Shown piece by piece: positions 9,520 through 37,295 of a DNA stretch of 43,481 bases; within the stretch, counting starts at the first letter, position 1; each line of letters starts with the position of its first letter. The stretch is from a virus: the IMG/VR virus record IMGVR_UViG_3300032893_000108, positions 1 through 43,481 of that record; one strand, given 5' to 3'. A program made the position numbers and the translations under genes. The notes under the pieces are model-generated. The model made no database searches. It was not told where the DNA came from and was given only the letters and a program-made list of their open reading frames with translations.

Positions 9520-11538
9520 TTAAGCTATCTGTTGTGTAGGAATAGGTAGATTGCCTACTTCTTCCCAGTCAATTGCAAAAGCATGTATCCGAACAGGGGC
9601 TGAGCCTTCAAGCTGCTCGAATTTAAGTTTCAGTGAGGTTCCTACATTGTTATTCTCGTATGAATGTAGGTTAAACTCTATAGGACTGATATCAGGAACA
9701 TAGTCATCCCAGAAAGCTTGATCCCATAAGGCTATATCCCATAAAGCAGGTTGTGCACCTTTAGACGGGGCCATAGAAACTTTAACTACTGATTGATATT
9801 CCATCCTGATACGATTATCAGCCCAATAGTAACATGTTAGATCATTTGGCGTAAGTCTTTCAATCCAGACTAGCACTCTATTGAATTGTTTCAATGTATC
9901 AGGATTACCCATATGAAAACTTTTAGTTTCATAATCAAAACTTACAGCTGTTGGAGCATCGCTGTAATGTTGATAAATATTCCCTGATTGATCTCCAGCT
10001 AAGAGTATCTCTTGGAAGTTAGACTGGCGAAAGGATAACAACCCGCTGTATTGATTACTGTCTGAATCGAATATAAAAACACCATCCATCTCAGGCTGTT
10101 CAAGGTTTTGACCTGCAGCACTGTTGGTATTCCGAATATCCATTTTTATACTGAATTTATTAACACCTTTAGTATGATGACTCAATCGCCATATAACCTG
10201 GTTTTTAGATTCGTAGAATGCTCCATAACCGCGGTTTAAGTTACCAAGGTCTAAATCACCATCTGGAGCGAACAATGCGAATATAGGACGAGATACTCTA
10301 GAAGGTCTACCTTTACCATCCCATATAAAAATACCATTAATTCCAATCCAGGTTAGGAAACCATTGAAAGGAACTATCAAAGTTTGAATCTGACATCCTG
10401 TTTTATCAACAATCTTCAGCTCCCAATCATCAGAACTAGTTCCTTGTAGAATCCAAAGCTCTCTTTCCTTGAATATACAGAGATATTCTTCAGCACCGGT
10501 TGTGTATTCCGAAGGTATACCCAGGACTGCTAATCCAGTTATAGGACCACCTGTAGCTACGGTTATTTCATTCTCTAAAGGCCAGCTCTCAGGTTTATTA
10601 AGATCTGAGAGTCTGATAGTACTGTTATATGCTGTTACGAGTCTACGTTTAAAGACTGTGATGTACTTATAAGTATTTGCCGTATCTAAGGCTGAATTAT
10701 CTAATACCGTATTTCCGGCTCTAGCAACATTCTGCGAACTTACTATTGAGTCTCCAGTATCTACGTACGTTGTAGAAGTAGAAGCAAGTTTAGCAATAAT
10801 ACTGCCAGTAGTAAAACCACTGGATCCATTAACTGCACTCCTGTATATCCAAATTTGATCGTAAAGGGTTGTATCGTTATTCGTAATACCTGTTAAATCT
10901 ATAGTAACTTGATCAGTCGTAGCAGATATGGTTGCTGAAACATCTAAAGCTACGTTAGAGAAGGTTTGTGTTGATAATTTCCTGTATTGAACAGCATAAT
11001 AATATGTACCTGTAGTGACGAAAGTTCCACTATCTGAAGCCTGGGTAGCTGTTATATTACCTGTAGGAGCTGGTACTCCGTTTTTAGTTACTTTCGAACC
11101 ATAATATCCGTAAATACCATTCATACCGCCACCAGCCATCCATAATTGTGTTCCCCCAGTTAATGTATTGAATGGTGAGAAAACTACAGGCTGAATTGAG
11201 CTGGAGTTTAAGAAATCAGTGTTAGCGGCAGTAGTATCATCCGTAAGATTCGTCGCTGTGTTTGATGATAAACTAAAGGTTTGAAGTTTAGTACCTGCAG
11301 CTCTTACTACAGTTCGTGTATCTGTAGCTACATCATGCCAGGATCCTAAACCTAAAGTGTTAAGTTGCGCATCAGGACTTGAATTTAATTGCTTAGCTGC
11401 CAATACTTTAGTAATAGCACCTGTTTGTGCATATTCGTAGTTATAACTCTGTCCTGTAGCTGCATTATCTGCAACACTCAAAGGGCTGGAGCTGATATCT
11501 ATACCCCCTAGATTATGGGAGAATACAGTAATAGGCAT
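9520..11538 (-). CDS. Large tail protein, beta-propeller nozzle/stabilisation-like
   Basis: A 672-aa protein starting at the ATG preceded by AAGGA (11538); a longer frame to 11589 lacks a good site. The middle holds repeated strand segments with Gly-Trp and Asp-Lys-Thr motifs (RLSDLNKPESWPL, ERELWILQGTS, FLTWIGINGIFIWDGKGRP), which suggest a beta-propeller or beta-rich hub. Length and position after the adaptor fit the tail nozzle (T7 gp12) or P22 gp10 stabilisation protein of short-tailed phages. The C-terminus (FKLKFEQLEGS..FAIDWEEVG) resembles domains in such proteins. Confidence 0.6.
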   Translation of the reverse strand: MPITVFSHNLGGIDISSSPLSVADNAATGQSYNYEYAQTGAITKVLAAKQLNSSPDAQLNTLGLGSWHDVATDTRTVVRAAGTKLQTFSLSSNTATNLTDDTTAANTDFLNSSSIQPVVFSPFNTLTGGTQLWMAGGGMNGIYGYYGSKVTKNGVPAPTGNITATQASDSGTFVTTGTYYYAVQYRKLSTQTFSNVALDVSATISATTDQVTIDLTGITNNDTTLYDQIWIYRSAVNGSSGFTTGSIIAKLASTSTTYVDTGDSIVSSQNVARAGNTVLDNSALDTANTYKYITVFKRRLVTAYNSTIRLSDLNKPESWPLENEITVATGGPITGLAVLGIPSEYTTGAEEYLCIFKERELWILQGTSSDDWELKIVDKTGCQIQTLIVPFNGFLTWIGINGIFIWDGKGRPSRVSRPIFALFAPDGDLDLGNLNRGYGAFYESKNQVIWRLSHHTKGVNKFSIKMDIRNTNSAAGQNLEQPEMDGVFIFDSDSNQYSGLLSFRQSNFQEILLAGDQSGNIYQHYSDAPTAVSFDYETKSFHMGNPDTLKQFNRVLVWIERLTPNDLTCYYWADNRIRMEYQSVVKVSMAPSKGAQPALWDIALWDQAFWDDYVPDISPIEFNLHSYENNNVGTSLKLKFEQLEGSAPVRIHAFAIDWEEVGNLPIPTQQIA

Positions 11539-28340: not shown

Positions 28341-29276
28341 ATGAAATACAAACTTATTAATAAAACTAAAGTTTTTAATGGCGTTACATTGTATCAAATA
28401 CAAGCCTTAGTTTCATTTTCTAATATTCAAAAAGGTGAGCTAGGTGGGTGGATAGAAAAAGAAAGTAATCTTAGCCAAGAAGGCAATGCATGGGTCTATG
28501 GCAATGCACAGGTCTATGGCAATGCACAGGTCTGTAACTATGCACGGGTCTATGGCGATACACAGGTCTATGGCAATGCACGGGTCTATGGCAATGCACG
28601 GGTCTATGACAATGCACTGGTCTATGGCAATGCATGGGTCTATGGCGATGCACGGGTCTATGGCGATGCACAGGTCTATAGCAATACACGGGTCTCTGAC
28701 AATGCACTGGTCTATGGCAATGCATGGGTCTATGGCGATACACAGGTCTATGGCGATGCATGGGTCTATGGCGATGCACGGGTCTATGGCAATGCACAGG
28801 TCTATGGCAATGCATGGATCTATGGCGATACACGGATCTATGGCAATGCATGGGTCTATGGCGATGCACGGGTCTATGGCGATGCGTGTATTATTTACGG
28901 AAAGTGTGATTTTGATATAAAAAATAATTTACGAAAATTAATAAGTTGTAGTTTGAATATTGTTCCTTCACACTATGTTAAAGGCATAGCTATTTATAAA
29001 TTATACAAAAAAGTTCGAAAAGTACACAAAAATACTTACGTTTCATTATATGATACTAGCTTTCAATATTCTGATGGAAAGGTAGTGACACAGTCTATAA
29101 CAACTGATGATCCGCTAGTCTCCTGTTCATCAGGTATACATGTGTCTACCCCTAATTATCGGAATGGAGGAGATACATTAATAGAAGTATTAGTTAAAGA
29201 AACAGACATCTTTTGTTGCATGGACGGTAAGATCAGAGCATCTAAAGTCAAAGTAATTGGTGAGGTAAAATTATGA
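28341..29276 (+). CDS. Hexapeptide-repeat (left-handed beta-helix) protein with C-terminal domain
   Basis: A 311-aa protein in three parts. The N-terminal part (YQIQALVSFSNIQKGELGG) is shared with the protein at 30429. Residues about 48-182 are about 22 hexapeptides of the type A-x-V-Y-G-N/D, with Val and Ala at the spacing of a left-handed beta-helix, so about seven coils. The C-terminal domain, ending SGIHVSTPNYRNGGDTL and KIRASKVKVIGEV, resembles the DUF5758/DUF7666 type found after such repeats in phages. It probably trimerises. Function unknown, perhaps a surface, anti-defence or scaffold protein. Confidence 0.7.
   Translation: MKYKLINKTKVFNGVTLYQIQALVSFSNIQKGELGGWIEKESNLSQEGNAWVYGNAQVYGNAQVCNYARVYGDTQVYGNARVYGNARVYDNALVYGNAWVYGDARVYGDAQVYSNTRVSDNALVYGNAWVYGDTQVYGDAWVYGDARVYGNAQVYGNAWIYGDTRIYGNAWVYGDARVYGDACIIYGKCDFDIKNNLRKLISCSLNIVPSHYVKGIAIYKLYKKVRKVHKNTYVSLYDTSFQYSDGKVVTQSITTDDPLVSCSSGIHVSTPNYRNGGDTLIEVLVKETDIFCCMDGKIRASKVKVIGEVKL
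28482..28886. repeat. 18-bp tandem repeat array 1
   Basis: About 22 copies of an 18-bp unit close to GGCAATGCACGGGTCTAT, varying at a few positions (AAT/GAT, CAC/CAT, GGG/AGG, TAT/TGT). It encodes the hexapeptide repeats in frame; because the unit is 6 codons, copy-number changes keep the frame. All other frames are also largely open, producing spurious long frames on both strands. Confidence 0.9.
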
Positions 29277-29746
29277 ATAGATATCATATTAACACTAAAA
29301 TATTAACTGCCTTAAACCCTTGCCCGGATAGGCTAGATAATTGGGTTAAACACTATAACAACTTTAACGGAAGCATATTCCGTTTCCTAAAACTAAAAAA
29401 GATTACCGCAAAAGATAAGATTTGGGTATTCCTAAAATTAACTTCCCGAGAAAATAAAGAGTACTTTGCAATTGATTGCGCTTTTTCAGCTATCAACCAC
29501 GTGAACAATGCTGCTGCTTCTGCTGATGCTGCTGCTGCTTATGCTGCTGCTTATGCTGCTTCTATTTATGCTGCTACTGCTGCTGATGCTGCTTATGCTG
29601 CTGATGCTGCTGCTGCTGCTTATGCTGCTGCTTATGCTGATGCTGCTTATGATGCTACTTATGCTGATGCTGCTTATGATGCTGAAAGATCGAGACAAAT
29701 AGAAGCTATTATTTATTTACTTAGAACAAAGTATGATAGTGACTAA
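29273..29746 (+). CDS. Ala-rich repeat protein
   Basis: A 157-aa protein. A normal N-terminal domain of about 78 residues (RYHINTKILTALNPCPDRLDNW, FRFLKLKKITAKDKIWVFL) is followed by an Ala/Asp/Tyr repeat helix of about 60 residues, then a charged C-terminal helix (RSRQIEAIIYLLRTKY). Such Ala-rich helical proteins occur in phage accessory regions; a relation to the 'putative immunity' type is possible but unproven. It is ATGA-coupled to the preceding gene. Confidence 0.6.
   Translation: MNRYHINTKILTALNPCPDRLDNWVKHYNNFNGSIFRFLKLKKITAKDKIWVFLKLTSRENKEYFAIDCAFSAINHVNNAAASADAAAAYAAAYAASIYAATAADAAYAADAAAAAYAAAYADAAYDATYADAAYDAERSRQIEAIIYLLRTKYDSD
29509..29684. repeat. GCT-rich codon repeat
   Basis: About 175 bp made almost only of GCT, GAT and TAT codons, a near-trinucleotide microsatellite encoding Ala with scattered Asp/Tyr. 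It also keeps other frames open (Leu/Met-rich and Ser/Ile-rich), which are not genes. Prone to slippage in multiples of three. Confidence 0.8.
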
Positions 29747-30213: not shown

Positions 30214-30436
30214 ATCTAGACGAGACTATAATATAGATCATGAAACTACGCCCGGTGATTTGAATTACATGATTACTATATTGTTAGTTAAATACTGGAA
30301 GTTCTCGGAACGGAATTATCAGTCTATTAATGATATCATAGGCGCTCTTGAAGGTGCGAAACTTGAGTTTTATCGCAGAATAGCTGTGCCATATGAGAAT
30401 ACTAAGCTTTCGGAAAATGGAGACGTATATGAATAA
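30197..30436 (+). CDS. DUF6899-like protein
   Basis: A 79-aa protein with the pattern of a widespread small phage family: MPYI near the start, PGDLNYMITILLVKYW, YQSINDIIGALEGAKLEFYRR, and a C-terminal PYENTKLSENGDVY. The family is common in phage genomes and of unknown function. It is probably all-helical. Its end overlaps the next repeat-protein gene. Confidence 0.75.
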   Translation: MPYIHKSRRDYNIDHETTPGDLNYMITILLVKYWKFSERNYQSINDIIGALEGAKLEFYRRIAVPYENTKLSENGDVYE

Positions 30437-31265
30437 ATATATATTAACAGATGAAACTAAAGAAGTTTTTGGAACAAAACTTTATAGAATTAAAGCTATT
30501 AAATCCTTTGCAAATATCAAAAAAGGCGATTTAGGAGGATTTATAGAAAAAAAGACTAATCTTAACCAAGAAGGCAATGCATGGGTCTATAGCAATGCAC
30601 AGGTCCATGGCAATGCACGGGTCTATGACAATGCACTGGTCTATGGCAATGCATGGGTCTGTGGCAATGCACGGGTCTCTGGCAATGCACGGGTCTCTGA
30701 CAATGCACAGGTCTATGGCACTGCACGGGTCTGTGGCACTGCACGGGTCTGTGGCAATGCACGGGTCTCTGGCAATGCACGGGTCTGTGGCAATGCACGG
30801 GTCTATGGCGATGCACAGGTCTCTGGCAATGCACAGGTCTGTGACAATGCACGGGTCTTTTACAATGCACTGGTCTATGGCAATGCATGGGTCTGTGGCA
30901 ATGCACGGGTCTGTGACAATGCACGGGTCTATGACAATGCACAGGTCTATGACAATGCACAGGTCTATGGCAATGCATGGGTCTATGGCGATGCACAGGT
31001 CTATGGCAATGCACAGGTCTATGGCGATGCACGGGTCTATGGCGATACAAAAATTAAGTTAAAACATCAACTTATTAATTTAATTAATTTACAATTTAAC
31101 ATTACCATAACCCCACAAAATATAGTTATAGGTTGTTATTTAAAAACATTCAATGAATGGAAGAAAATCACATTAAAGCAAGCATTAAAATTAGGTTTAG
31201 AAAAGAATCAATACAAACTACTTAAAACAATTATTCCACTACTTTATAAGGAGGTATGCAAATGA
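30429..31265 (+). CDS. Second hexapeptide-repeat (left-handed beta-helix) protein
   Basis: A 278-aa protein from ATG 30429 (12 codons inside a longer frame). The N-terminal domain (YILTDETKEVFG, KAIKSFANIKKGDLGG) is paralogous to that at 28341. About 26 hexapeptides follow (AQVYGNAxV type), about eight to nine coils. The C-terminal region (LKHQLINLINLQFNI, QALKLGLEKNQYKL) is unrelated to that of the first protein. The two genes thus share a repeat module with different ends, as if the tail was exchanged. Confidence 0.7.
   Translation: MNKYILTDETKEVFGTKLYRIKAIKSFANIKKGDLGGFIEKKTNLNQEGNAWVYSNAQVHGNARVYDNALVYGNAWVCGNARVSGNARVSDNAQVYGTARVCGTARVCGNARVSGNARVCGNARVYGDAQVSGNAQVCDNARVFYNALVYGNAWVCGNARVCDNARVYDNAQVYDNAQVYGNAWVYGDAQVYGNAQVYGDARVYGDTKIKLKHQLINLINLQFNITITPQNIVIGCYLKTFNEWKKITLKQALKLGLEKNQYKLLKTIIPLLYKEVCK
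30573..31048. repeat. 18-bp tandem repeat array 2
   Basis: About 26 copies of the same 18-bp unit as array 1 (GGCAATGCACGGGTCT followed by AT, GT or CT). Units are nearly identical between arrays 2 kb apart, which suggests recent duplication, gene conversion or recombination between them. It is not CRISPR: there are no unique spacers. Confidence 0.9.
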
Positions 31266-31456
31266 GTATTACATTTTGGAAGAAAGAAACAGGTAATTTA
31301 ATGAATGCTAAACAAGGGTTGACTGCAGAGCAAATTGAATTTCTTCAGTCCTTAAAACAAGGAGACCGATTGATTCTTTGGTTTGAAAATCAGAAATCTT
31401 CTGATAACTCTCCTGATTTTCGCATGAAGAAATACGCAAAGGAAAAACCAGAATGA
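31262..31456 (+). CDS. Hypothetical small protein
   Basis: A 64-aa protein from the ATG with the best spacing to AAGGAGG (an ATG 6 bases earlier is too close). It has a helix GLTAEQIEFLQSLKQGDRLI and a charged C-terminus. Coupled by ATGA to the previous gene and to the next. Unassigned. Confidence 0.5.
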   Translation: MSITFWKKETGNLMNAKQGLTAEQIEFLQSLKQGDRLILWFENQKSSDNSPDFRMKKYAKEKPE

Positions 31457-31641
31457 CTCCAGCACTGTTAGTTTACTTAGAAATACTGTTAAAACCACAT
31501 TGTGATGTTAACAGAGACTATGAACGAATCGTAGCAGCATCGCGCATAGAACCAATGAATTACAGGATGTTACTCGTAGCTAAACAAGAATTGATACATA
31601 AATGTGGTTATAGTAAATACCAACGAGGTAATGATGAATAA
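31453..31641 (+). CDS. Hypothetical small protein
   Basis: A 62-aa protein with a helical pattern (PALLVYLEILLKPH, YRMLLVAKQELIHKC). ATGA-coupled upstream. Its last bases contain the ribosome site and start of the PagL-like gene. Unassigned. Confidence 0.5.
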   Translation: MTPALLVYLEILLKPHCDVNRDYERIVAASRIEPMNYRMLLVAKQELIHKCGYSKYQRGNDE

Positions 31642-32125
31642 ACTAGCATTAGCAGCTATTTTTCTTGGAAGCTTACAATCTTCCGGTGAAGAAGTGACAT
31701 TCAAATACGGCTTAGGATTTGGTCAGCCAAATCAAGACGGTGTAGCAGAGACTAAATACATCTCATTCGGATATCAGAATGGTATGTCTAATGTGTTTGA
31801 TTACAAGCTAGATCTCGGCGCCTGGTTTGATAGCTTAGATCCTGATAAAGAAAAGCGTAGCTCAGGATTTGCTAGTTCATCAATCGGCGTTAGAGTCAAC
31901 CCCAATTGGTTTTATGCAGAGACATTCTTTGGTGTTAGTTATATCACACAAGTAGATACTCAGCTTAGCACACAGTTTGAGTTTACAGAAGAATTAGGAA
32001 TAGGGATTAAAGATGAATACGGAAAAACAATAGGATTTGAATACCGCCATTTTAGTAACGCTGGAATAGCTTTGCCGAATAAAGGCCGAGATTTCTTTCT
32101 TGTCAACGTAGGAGTACCATTATGA
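31634..32125 (+). CDS. PagL-like lipid A 3-O-deacylase
   Basis: A 163-aa protein with a signal peptide (NKLALAAIFLGSLQSSG) and an alternating amphipathic pattern of an outer-membrane beta-barrel ending in a hydrophobic strand FFLVNVGVPL. Near the C-terminus H139-F-S141-N-A-G-I and P-N-x-G-x-D153 align with the PagL catalytic motif (His126, Ser128, Glu140 in P. aeruginosa), with exact spacing, but Asp replaces the catalytic Glu. PagL removes the 3-linked acyl chain of lipid A. In a phage it could remodel LPS during infection. I chose the ATG five bases after GAGG. Confidence 0.75.
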   Translation: MNKLALAAIFLGSLQSSGEEVTFKYGLGFGQPNQDGVAETKYISFGYQNGMSNVFDYKLDLGAWFDSLDPDKEKRSSGFASSSIGVRVNPNWFYAETFFGVSYITQVDTQLSTQFEFTEELGIGIKDEYGKTIGFEYRHFSNAGIALPNKGRDFFLVNVGVPL

Positions 32126-32304
32126 AAGACTTTTTTAGAGTAATGAATCAAGATGCTATTAATGAGAACATGAAACTATACGAAATATTCCTAGAAGAAT
32201 ACGGATTAGAGGATAATAAACAGAATTGGGATACATTCGTAGATCACTATGCTAATAAATTTGATAGCTTCATGTATGATTATTATGATAGAATGGAGAA
32301 ATGA
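32122..32304 (+). CDS. Small acidic helical protein
   Basis: A 60-aa acidic protein with many Asp, Glu and aromatic residues (LYEIFLEEYGLEDNKQNW, FVDHYANKFDSFMYDYYD). Probably helical. ATGA-coupled to the PagL-like gene and to the next gene. Unassigned. Confidence 0.5.
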   Translation: MKDFFRVMNQDAINENMKLYEIFLEEYGLEDNKQNWDTFVDHYANKFDSFMYDYYDRMEK

Positions 32305-33101: not shown

Positions 33102-33400
33102 CTCCAAGTGAACGGTTGAACGAAATTACAAATAGGTTCTATTCTTTTATTGCCGAAAATCCTAAAGAAAATTTAGATGATCAGTGCAGTGATGACGTTA
33201 TTTGGCTTATCAACCGAGTGAAGGTGCTGACTGAAGCGCTAGAGTTTAATAAAGAAGCTTGTTGGGATGGATATAATGAATTGCAAGCGCTTACTTCGAC
33301 TGCGACTCAGGACAGTTTATGGTCAGATCAATTCGCAGTATTAGAACATTTAAAATTAGCATATGATAAAGCACGCAAAGCCCTTGAAGGTGATGAATAA
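33098..33400 (+). CDS. Hypothetical helical protein
   Basis: A 100-aa helical protein (PSERLNEITNRFYSFI, VIWLINRVKVLTEALEFN, FAVLEHLKLAYDKARKAL). Its stop and the next start share a base (TAATG). It may be a small partner of the glycosyltransferase by position only. Confidence 0.5.
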   Translation: MTPSERLNEITNRFYSFIAENPKENLDDQCSDDVIWLINRVKVLTEALEFNKEACWDGYNELQALTSTATQDSLWSDQFAVLEHLKLAYDKARKALEGDE

Positions 33401-34419
33401 TGCATTTCAATATAATCTTTCTTGATACTACAGCTAATAAATACTATGATTCCACAACCTTGGAACGTGAGCCACTGGGCGGAACAGAAGCTACAATTAT
33501 TCGTATAGCTGAAAGTCTTGCCCAAGTTGGTTTATCTGTTGCTGTAGTGCAGACTACTTGCCCGCCGTTTGAACCCGTGATGGGTCAATACTGCTTCTTC
33601 ATGCATAACACCTCACTCCCATCGAATGTTACCTGTGATTACTTCATCCAAATACGGGGGATTAGCAACTCTCATCTGTTTCCCGAGGCTAAGAAATACG
33701 TCTGGATGCATGATTTAGGTCATGAGAAGATGAAAGATTGGCCTGATAAGTTGAATAAGTACAACATCAAAATGATTGCGGTAAGTCGCTGGCATAAGAA
33801 GAATCTAAAGAAATACCTGGAAGGGTATGATAACATCACTTACATCTACAACCCTGTTCCAGATAGTTTATTCATACCACCGGATAAACGATCAGCTTAT
33901 GATAAGAATCTTATCGCTTGGCTTTCTAGTCCGCATAAGGGATTAGGGAATGCCACAAGACTTTTCAAAAAACTTCATGAACTGCGGCCGCAAATGAAGT
34001 TCCTAATCTTTAATCCTGGGTACTTACAGATAGACACAGTAGCATTGTCATCTAACAAAAATGTGTATTATTCAGGACCTGAGAACTGTAAAACAGTATG
34101 GTCAGTCCTCCAACGCTGTTTGTGTGTGTTTTATCCTACAAACTGGGAAGAAACGTTTGGCTGTGTGGCTTCTGAAGCTAATGCCTTGGGCGTTCCATTA
34201 GCTACATACAAAAAAGGTGCACTTAATGAAGTTGTTACGTCTAATGATCAACTACTAGAAGACGGTGATGAGGATGGCATTATACAACGAGTAATCGATT
34301 GGTATGACAGTGGTAGACCATTGATTCATGGTAACGAAGAGTTTAAACTATCAGTTGTAGTCGATGATTGGCTTAGTATGTTCAAGCGTTCATCTCCCAA
34401 AATCATTACAAAAAAATAG
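33400..34419 (+). CDS. GT-B glycosyltransferase (GT4-like)
   Basis: A 339-aa protein with the GT4/GT-B layout. The N-terminal Rossmann half carries LGGTEATIIRIAESL (glycine loop). A linker NPVPD at 151 and a C-terminal donor half follow, with EETFGCVASEANALG at about 251-264, which is the E-x7-E signature region. It would use a nucleotide sugar. Near the PagL-like gene, a role in host surface (LPS) modification is a reasonable inference. It is the last gene of the rightward accessory block. Confidence 0.8.
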   Translation: MHFNIIFLDTTANKYYDSTTLEREPLGGTEATIIRIAESLAQVGLSVAVVQTTCPPFEPVMGQYCFFMHNTSLPSNVTCDYFIQIRGISNSHLFPEAKKYVWMHDLGHEKMKDWPDKLNKYNIKMIAVSRWHKKNLKKYLEGYDNITYIYNPVPDSLFIPPDKRSAYDKNLIAWLSSPHKGLGNATRLFKKLHELRPQMKFLIFNPGYLQIDTVALSSNKNVYYSGPENCKTVWSVLQRCLCVFYPTNWEETFGCVASEANALGVPLATYKKGALNEVVTSNDQLLEDGDEDGIIQRVIDWYDSGRPLIHGNEEFKLSVVVDDWLSMFKRSSPKIITKK

Positions 34420-36097: not shown

Positions 36098-36530
36098 TCA
36101 CAGCTCTTTCTGCAGGAGCAGCAGCTCCGGGTAAAACAACAGTTAAGGATTGAGCTTGATTCGATTGTGTATCAACATTGTCTAGTCCGACTATCTTCAG
36201 AGCATGGGGAACAGCATTGATGTTACCATCTTGTAATGCTTTAGTCAGGGCAGGTGCAATCAGAGGAACTACAGTTTCTACAACTTCCTTCTGCAACCGA
36301 GAATGCGAAGCTTTAACAACATTATCTGTGTATTCCTTATACACACGAACATAGACATCATGCATTCTCAGACGTTCTACTTGGCTTCTAGTGAAGTGAT
36401 ATCCAAACTCTTCTGTCAAGATCTGCACTTGTTTATTAATACCAACACCTGTGATACTTAGCTCAGCAGCCCTAGCAGCAGCTTCTATTTTGTTAACTTC
36501 TTTGTAATCTGTTTTAATAATTTGAGCCAT
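36078..36530 (-). CDS. Possible terminase small subunit
   Basis: A 150-aa protein with a helix-turn-helix-like N-terminal half (ARAAELSITGVGINKQVQILTEE, YHFTRSQVERLRMHDV), a helical middle (LQKEVVETVVPLIAPALTKAL) and a C-terminal beta tail (SNQAQSLTVVLPGA) like that of several small terminases. If so, it is far from the large subunit, in the lysis block. The start shares a TGATG with the protease stop. Moderate guess only. Confidence 0.4.
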   Translation of the reverse strand: MAQIIKTDYKEVNKIEAAARAAELSITGVGINKQVQILTEEFGYHFTRSQVERLRMHDVYVRVYKEYTDNVVKASHSRLQKEVVETVVPLIAPALTKALQDGNINAVPHALKIVGLDNVDTQSNQAQSLTVVLPGAAAPAERAVNEKTED

Positions 36531-37150
36531 CAAAGACTTTCTGCAAACTCATACAGATCTTCATACGGCACAGCATAGCTCCTACTTTGATACCCAGCAA
36601 AAGCTACACCGACTACATTACCAAAGTTATCAACAACAGGAGAACCTGAGTTACCACCAAGAACCTGTGCAGTCATACTCATTACGTTAATTTTATAGGG
36701 AATTGTTATTTCAGTATAATCAGAGATTTCCCCTTCTGTAATCGTTGTAGGCTCAAGAAGTGGATGGCCGATGATAAAAATCCGTTGATGGATTGAATGC
36801 CATCTAGCAATACTAAGTCCTGATGTTTGCTCAGCTGGGGCATTAATCGCACACAGATCACTGTAAGGGTATATTTTATACACTGTAGCACCGTATGTAT
36901 AAATTTTATTACTAATAATTAACAATCCTTGAGTTGCTAAATTACAAACATGTTGGTTAGTGATAATATAAACTTTACCGCGATGCTTAAGATAAAATCC
37001 TGTACCACCACTAGTTCCAGCAAGATTTTCTACCTTAACAACATATTTGCTGAAGTAATTTATATAACTCCAATGAATCTGTTTCAAGGTTGGTAGAAAG
37101 AATACTAGTAATACAGCTACAGAGGCTAATCTAACAAGATGTCGTAACAT
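36530..37150 (-). CDS. Membrane-anchored trypsin-like serine protease
   Basis: A 206-aa protein from an ATG preceded by AGGAG. The N-terminal hydrophobic helix (LVRLASVAVLLVFFLP) anchors or exports it. The trypsin fold shows the triad H67 (ITNQHVC), D98 (YSDLC) and S168 (GGNSGSP). The oxyanion GNSG is intact. Substrate unknown; it may act in the periplasm on host or phage proteins. It is the first gene after the leftward promoter at 37296-37324. Confidence 0.75.
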   Translation of the reverse strand: MLRHLVRLASVAVLLVFFLPTLKQIHWSYINYFSKYVVKVENLAGTSGGTGFYLKHRGKVYIITNQHVCNLATQGLLIISNKIYTYGATVYKIYPYSDLCAINAPAEQTSGLSIARWHSIHQRIFIIGHPLLEPTTITEGEISDYTEITIPYKINVMSMTAQVLGGNSGSPVVDNFGNVVGVAFAGYQSRSYAVPYEDLYEFAESL

Positions 37151-37295
37151 AACTCTCCTAAGGTTAATGTTTACATAGAATATCATAAGCTTAAAGAATA
37201 GTCTAGCTAATAATTCTGTAACGACCCTCTAAGGTACTTATTTACATGCTAGCCTTATATTAGCTATATTAGCTTCCCCCTCAAGCACTTCGTTC

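Follow-up and report, generated by a model that had tools for sequence, protein, structure and literature searches.

Does a bacteriophage carry its own enzyme for editing the lipid anchor of host lipopolysaccharide (LPS)? This question is raised by a gene located at 31634..32125 on the + strand of the window, i.e., the whole stretch of 43,481 nucleotides analyzed here (IMG/VR virus record IMGVR_UViG_3300032893_000108), for which an outer-membrane lipid A deacylase of the PagL type had been predicted. Enzymes of the PagL family trim LPS at its lipid A anchor, taking off a fatty acid, and LPS very commonly serves as the receptor for phages that infect Gram-negative bacteria. If active, the product of this gene would be a phage enzyme acting on the lipid anchor of LPS, making it possible to test for an influence of lipid A acylation on adsorption, superinfection or release.

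A PagL-family protein with a predicted eight-stranded barrel

The 163-aa protein is a member of the PagL family. Its match to the Pfam family PF09411 (PagL; E=4.5e-14, 53.2 bits, with a gathering cut-off of 23 bits) was the only one obtained from Pfam at E-values up to 10, LpxR (PF09982) being among the families without a match, and NCBIfam yielded none. Likewise, among solved structures, sequence searches retrieved only that of Pseudomonas aeruginosa PagL (2ERV), whether run with the single protein (phmmer, E=5.8e-5) or with the PagL family profile (E=9.4e-54). Identity to bacterial PagLs is about 20-27%, and about 17-20% over the whole length in the case of 2ERV. The two proteins are of similar length and share the C-terminal pattern HxSNAGxxxPNxGx(E/D), including the His and the Ser, as well as the eight-stranded barrel, which is predicted for the window protein; the latter differs in being phage-encoded, in carrying Asp instead of Glu and in its terminal Leu. 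Specifically, the C-terminus of the window protein, HFSNAGIALPNKGRD, contains the motif H139-F-S141-N-A-G ... P-N-x-G-x-D153 and aligns without gaps to HYSNAGLKQPNDGIE of 2ERV, such that H139, S141 and D153 fall on the His/Ser/Glu triad. Thus, the spacing attributed to this motif in the original prediction is indeed that of the PagL catalytic residues, with D153 on the Glu.

Structure prediction points in the same direction. An AlphaFold model computed from a 52-sequence alignment has eight strands (pLDDT 88.2, pTM 0.81), the barrel expected of a PagL-like protein, and in a Foldseek search of the PDB the model retrieved 2ERV at rank 1 (E=4.2e-6), with TM scores of 0.60/0.64, i.e., moderate similarity. 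OmpX, OmpW and Ail were also matched, at lower ranks, and could be taken to indicate an unrelated small barrel of the OmpX/Ail/Lom type with a PagL-like C-terminus arisen by chance. We find this scarcely credible, given that PagL is the best fold match, the only family match and the only sequence match in the PDB. The profile scores contradict it as well: a profile built solely from bacterial PagLs scored the whole protein at 67 bits and, once the motif had been removed, the remaining residues 1-138 at 25.5 bits, compared with 9.7 bits for the best shuffled copy. The prediction of an outer-membrane barrel of the PagL type, encoded by a phage and complete in its catalytic motif, is supported by the Pfam match, the alignment of the motif to 2ERV, the eight-stranded model and the Foldseek ranking.

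At the N-terminus, residues 1-19 (MNKLALAAIFLGSLQSSGE; 31634..31690, + strand) form a putative signal peptide, recognized in the translation as a hydrophobic stretch; its cleavage site is weak by eye, and the model shows a helix at residues 3-12.

Variability of the third triad residue

The predicted catalytic residues His139 (codon CAT, 32048..32050) and Ser141 (codon AGT, 32054..32056), both encoded on the + strand, coincide with the catalytic His and Ser of 2ERV and, along with N142, A143 and N149, are invariant in all 52 rows of the family alignment. In Salmonella PagL, the His and the Ser are essential (PMC4958258). The third triad position, 12 residues after the Ser, is occupied in the window protein by Asp153 (codon GAT, 32090..32092, + strand), and this replacement of Glu had been singled out as a special feature.

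Wider sampling shows that it is not. Among 79 distinct bacterial PagL genes recovered in a genome scan, which were selected by the HxSNA motif and not by the third position, this residue is Glu in 33, Asp in 32 and Asn in 14. A further phylum-level sample, picked by Pfam match and centered on a Desulfobacter genome, included 28 readable proteins, with Asn (17), Asp (7), Thr (2), Glu (1) and Ser (1) at this position, which changed at least 18 times on the PagL tree. Like the window protein, the PagLs of the Bordetella group have Asp at the third position, in 9 of the 9 genomes sampled within the genus of a Bordetella genome; there, the gene is chromosomal, the motif is mostly HFSNASIKRPNPGLD, and identity to the window protein is about 25%. 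In B. parapertussis, PagL removes the 3-linked acyl chain in vivo, and when pagL is deleted, lipid A retains its 3-linked C10-OH chain (PMC11895810); the Bordetella tally refers to members of the genus rather than to the strain of that study. Asp is thus an ordinary PagL state, Glu, Asp and Asn all being common, and D153 provides no grounds for expecting loss or novelty of function. The possibility of a novel catalytic variant was rejected in view of the tallies and of the number of changes on the tree, and an Asp at the third triad position can no longer be taken as the sign of an unusual enzyme.

An accessory gene in a probable variable slot of the phage genome

The pagL gene is embedded in a tightly packed run of + strand genes, overlapping both of its neighbors. 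Upstream, an ORF of 62 aa (31453..31641, + strand) ends 8 bases inside pagL, suggesting translational coupling; a second in-frame ATG, at 31631, directly 5′ of the pagL start, provides an alternative start site. Downstream, an ORF of 60 aa (32122..32304, + strand) shares 4 bases (ATGA) with the pagL stop. Neither small ORF has a match among the PHROGs. Given that pagL overlaps the ORFs on either side, within a record that also contains terminase, portal and capsid genes, contamination by a host gene was rejected.

Comparison with related phages shows what is peculiar to the window. The 66-aa gene on the left flank (31256..31456, + strand) has blastp matches in two related phages that lack pagL (46% in L186 and 36% in L187). 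On the right flank lies a glycosyltransferase gene (Glycos_transf_1; 33400..34419, + strand; PF00534, E=1.1e-12). Of the relatives of the window phage, two are near full length (G006 and G008, with terminases 53-57% identical); both keep the 66-aa flank gene and the glycosyltransferase and lack PagL. Most likely, then, pagL is an accessory insertion in a variable slot.

The same comparison bears on the proposed association of pagL with the glycosyltransferase in a block, which did not hold up: the glycosyltransferase gene is present in G001, G006 and G008, and PF09411 is absent from all three, so that the glycosyltransferase cannot be cited in favor of a combined LPS-editing block, and a functional unit of this kind is unsupported. 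The description of the phage as virulent is unproven. On the one hand, the window contains no tyrosine integrase, the only integrase type specifically sought, in a record that may be incomplete; on the other hand, the closest relative of the window phage, a 14-kb fragment with a 77% identical terminase, carries a short integrase. None of the genes of the window was identified as encoding an LPS-binding receptor protein.

Viral relatives and repeated acquisition of PagL

Searches of 50,697 deposited phage records with five PagL queries returned only chance matches, and a DNA motif scan of viral contigs in which P-N was held fixed gave no match. By contrast, a profile-guided scan of viral contigs recovered PagL relatives, 105 of them confirmed; the 80 that were retained comprise L002, L091 and 78 of the Pseudomonas type. 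L002, a 52-kb record, holds the single close relative in IMG/VR (74% identity over 144 residues), also with Asp at the third position. L091 (IMGVR_UViG_3300045996_002337, 349,660 bases) encodes a PagL homologue at about 9749-10237, with Asn at the third position, among PhoH-like, RNA-ligase and head-protease genes.

L002 represents another uncultivated phage, with structural genes unlike those of the window phage; only the capsid proteins of the two meet, in one distant PHROG. Apart from PagL, the two share a VTC-domain protein, a YdcK-type repeat protein and a 92-aa cysteine-rich protein (85%). Their pagL genes differ with dN of 0.24 and dS of about 1.9, giving a ratio of about 0.13, which is rough because dS is near saturation and which indicates purifying selection and maintenance of the gene.

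The pattern of conservation is informative about catalysis. A PagL-derived barrel that had fallen catalytically silent, serving only as a surface protein, for example in receptor masking, might be entertained, as phages encode many small outer-membrane barrels without known enzyme activity and the window protein is divergent and sits on a long branch. Yet L002 PagL keeps the triad, and the blocks FEYRHFSNAG and NKGRDFF, the former including H139 and S141, are identical in the two phage proteins despite differences at about 32% of all positions. Such conservation would be superfluous in a silent barrel, and we consider this explanation improbable. Taking all the evidence together, we put the probability that the window protein is an active PagL-type deacylase at roughly three in four.

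In the PagL tree, the window and L002 proteins form a pair of their own on a long branch (100/100), without a close bacterial neighbor, a placement that is tentative. The PagL of the 350-kb phage L091 falls in a Burkholderiales-like group, and those of the Pseudomonas prophages lie beside Pseudomonas chromosomal PagL. By this phylogenetic evidence, PagL was acquired by phages at least 3 times, namely, in the window/L002 lineage, in the 350-kb phage and in Pseudomonas prophages, and acquisitions at three places in the tree suggest a recurrent benefit. As for the source of the window gene, a first bacterial genome scan with the window and L002 proteins gave no relative, and in 398 Pseudomonadota genomes the best match was 37-39% identical over half the length, so that a donor was not identified.

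In the literature searched, subscription journals excepted, we came across no description of a PagL encoded by a phage. Another lipid A deacylase, LpxR (PF09982), belongs to a family different from PagL and acts at the 3′ position of lipid A. Like the window gene, it is phage-carried, having been reported near gene Q in lambdoid prophages of E. coli (PMC13192938, a 2026 preprint), so that lipid A deacylases carried by phages have a precedent. PagL is found here in an unusual carrier; the useful outcomes are that phages have captured PagL recurrently and that a PHROG can be given a name, as follows.

PagL in Pseudomonas prophages

At least 78 Pseudomonas prophage-type contigs (L092-L169; for example, L104:9629-10171 and L098:10001-10513) encode a PagL with Glu at the third position. 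The two such proteins that were checked are both full-length members of PHROG 15758, labeled ‘unknown function’, which provides a likely function for this unannotated family common in Pseudomonas prophages. The window protein and PHROG 15758 are alike in belonging to the PagL family and in being phage-borne, but the match of the window protein to the PHROG 15758 profile is weak (E=2.4e-4), and the PHROG members differ in having Glu at the third position, in their proximity to Pseudomonas chromosomal PagL and in their location between a Q-like antiterminator and lysis genes. Indeed, in the examined Pseudomonas contigs, a Q-like antiterminator gene is followed by pagL and then by holin-/spanin-like genes and the terminase; in 53 of the 78 contigs, pagL is followed downstream by a holin-like gene, at a median distance of 629 bases. 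In view of this location, the possibility that the viral-contig PagLs belong to the chromosomal flank of a prophage was ruled out for those examined.

The position of pagL before the lysis genes fits late expression and a role in release or vesiculation in the Pseudomonas prophages. Extended to the window, this would make the protein an active hydrolase of the PagL type that serves chiefly to weaken the outer membrane, or to turn it into vesicles, for lysis and release, as opposed to changing adsorption. In Salmonella, expression of PagL increases vesiculation, the activity itself driving vesicle formation (PMC4958258), which would suit such a role. We consider it unlikely for the window phage, however, because in both the window and L002 the gene is set among small overlapping genes and not beside the lysozyme gene, and because, according to the same source, PagL expression in Salmonella did not induce an envelope stress response. 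Judging from gene order, including the location of pagL behind an RNA ligase gene in L002, the position in these two phages agrees with early or middle expression and with an altered cell surface.

Proposed activity and benefit to the phage

By analogy with the family, an active deacylase encoded by the window would be exported via Sec after infection and would insert into the host outer membrane as an eight-stranded barrel, where, in the outer leaflet, H139, S141 and D153 would hydrolyze the ester bond that holds the 3-hydroxyacyl chain at position 3 of lipid A. The altered LPS of the infected cell, and of the vesicles and debris that it sheds, might then adsorb competing or sibling phages less well. 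That the benefit to the phage lies in such lowered adsorption is possible, although, resting as it does on analogy, we rate it at somewhat short of even odds. More tentatively, lipid A deacylation by PagL could be a recurrent phage strategy, taken up on each of the at least three acquisitions, in which remodeling of the outer leaflet spares progeny or excludes competitors. Under such a strategy, it is conceivable, with similar reservation, that progeny would otherwise be lost to siblings, debris and vesicles, and that the window lineage is a case outside recognized prophages.

Other genes of the window

Several further genes were noted. Two YdcK-type beta-solenoid repeat proteins are encoded close together, at 28341-29276 and 30393-31265; this repeat family, with at least 264 relatives, is very common in viral contigs. 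Next to the first of them, the gene at 29273-29746 encodes an alanine/tyrosine/aspartate-rich, low-complexity protein with AAAYAAAYADAAYDA repeats, and related phages encode Ala-rich proteins resembling it (L186:16647-17243 and L187:4490-5044). The VTC-domain protein (2052-2861; E=6.2e-40) has its counterpart in the otherwise different L002 phage record at L191:260-1078. Finally, a trypsin-like serine protease with an N-terminal hydrophobic segment is encoded at 36530-37186 on the − strand, where its gene adjoins a small-terminase-like gene, near the lysozyme.
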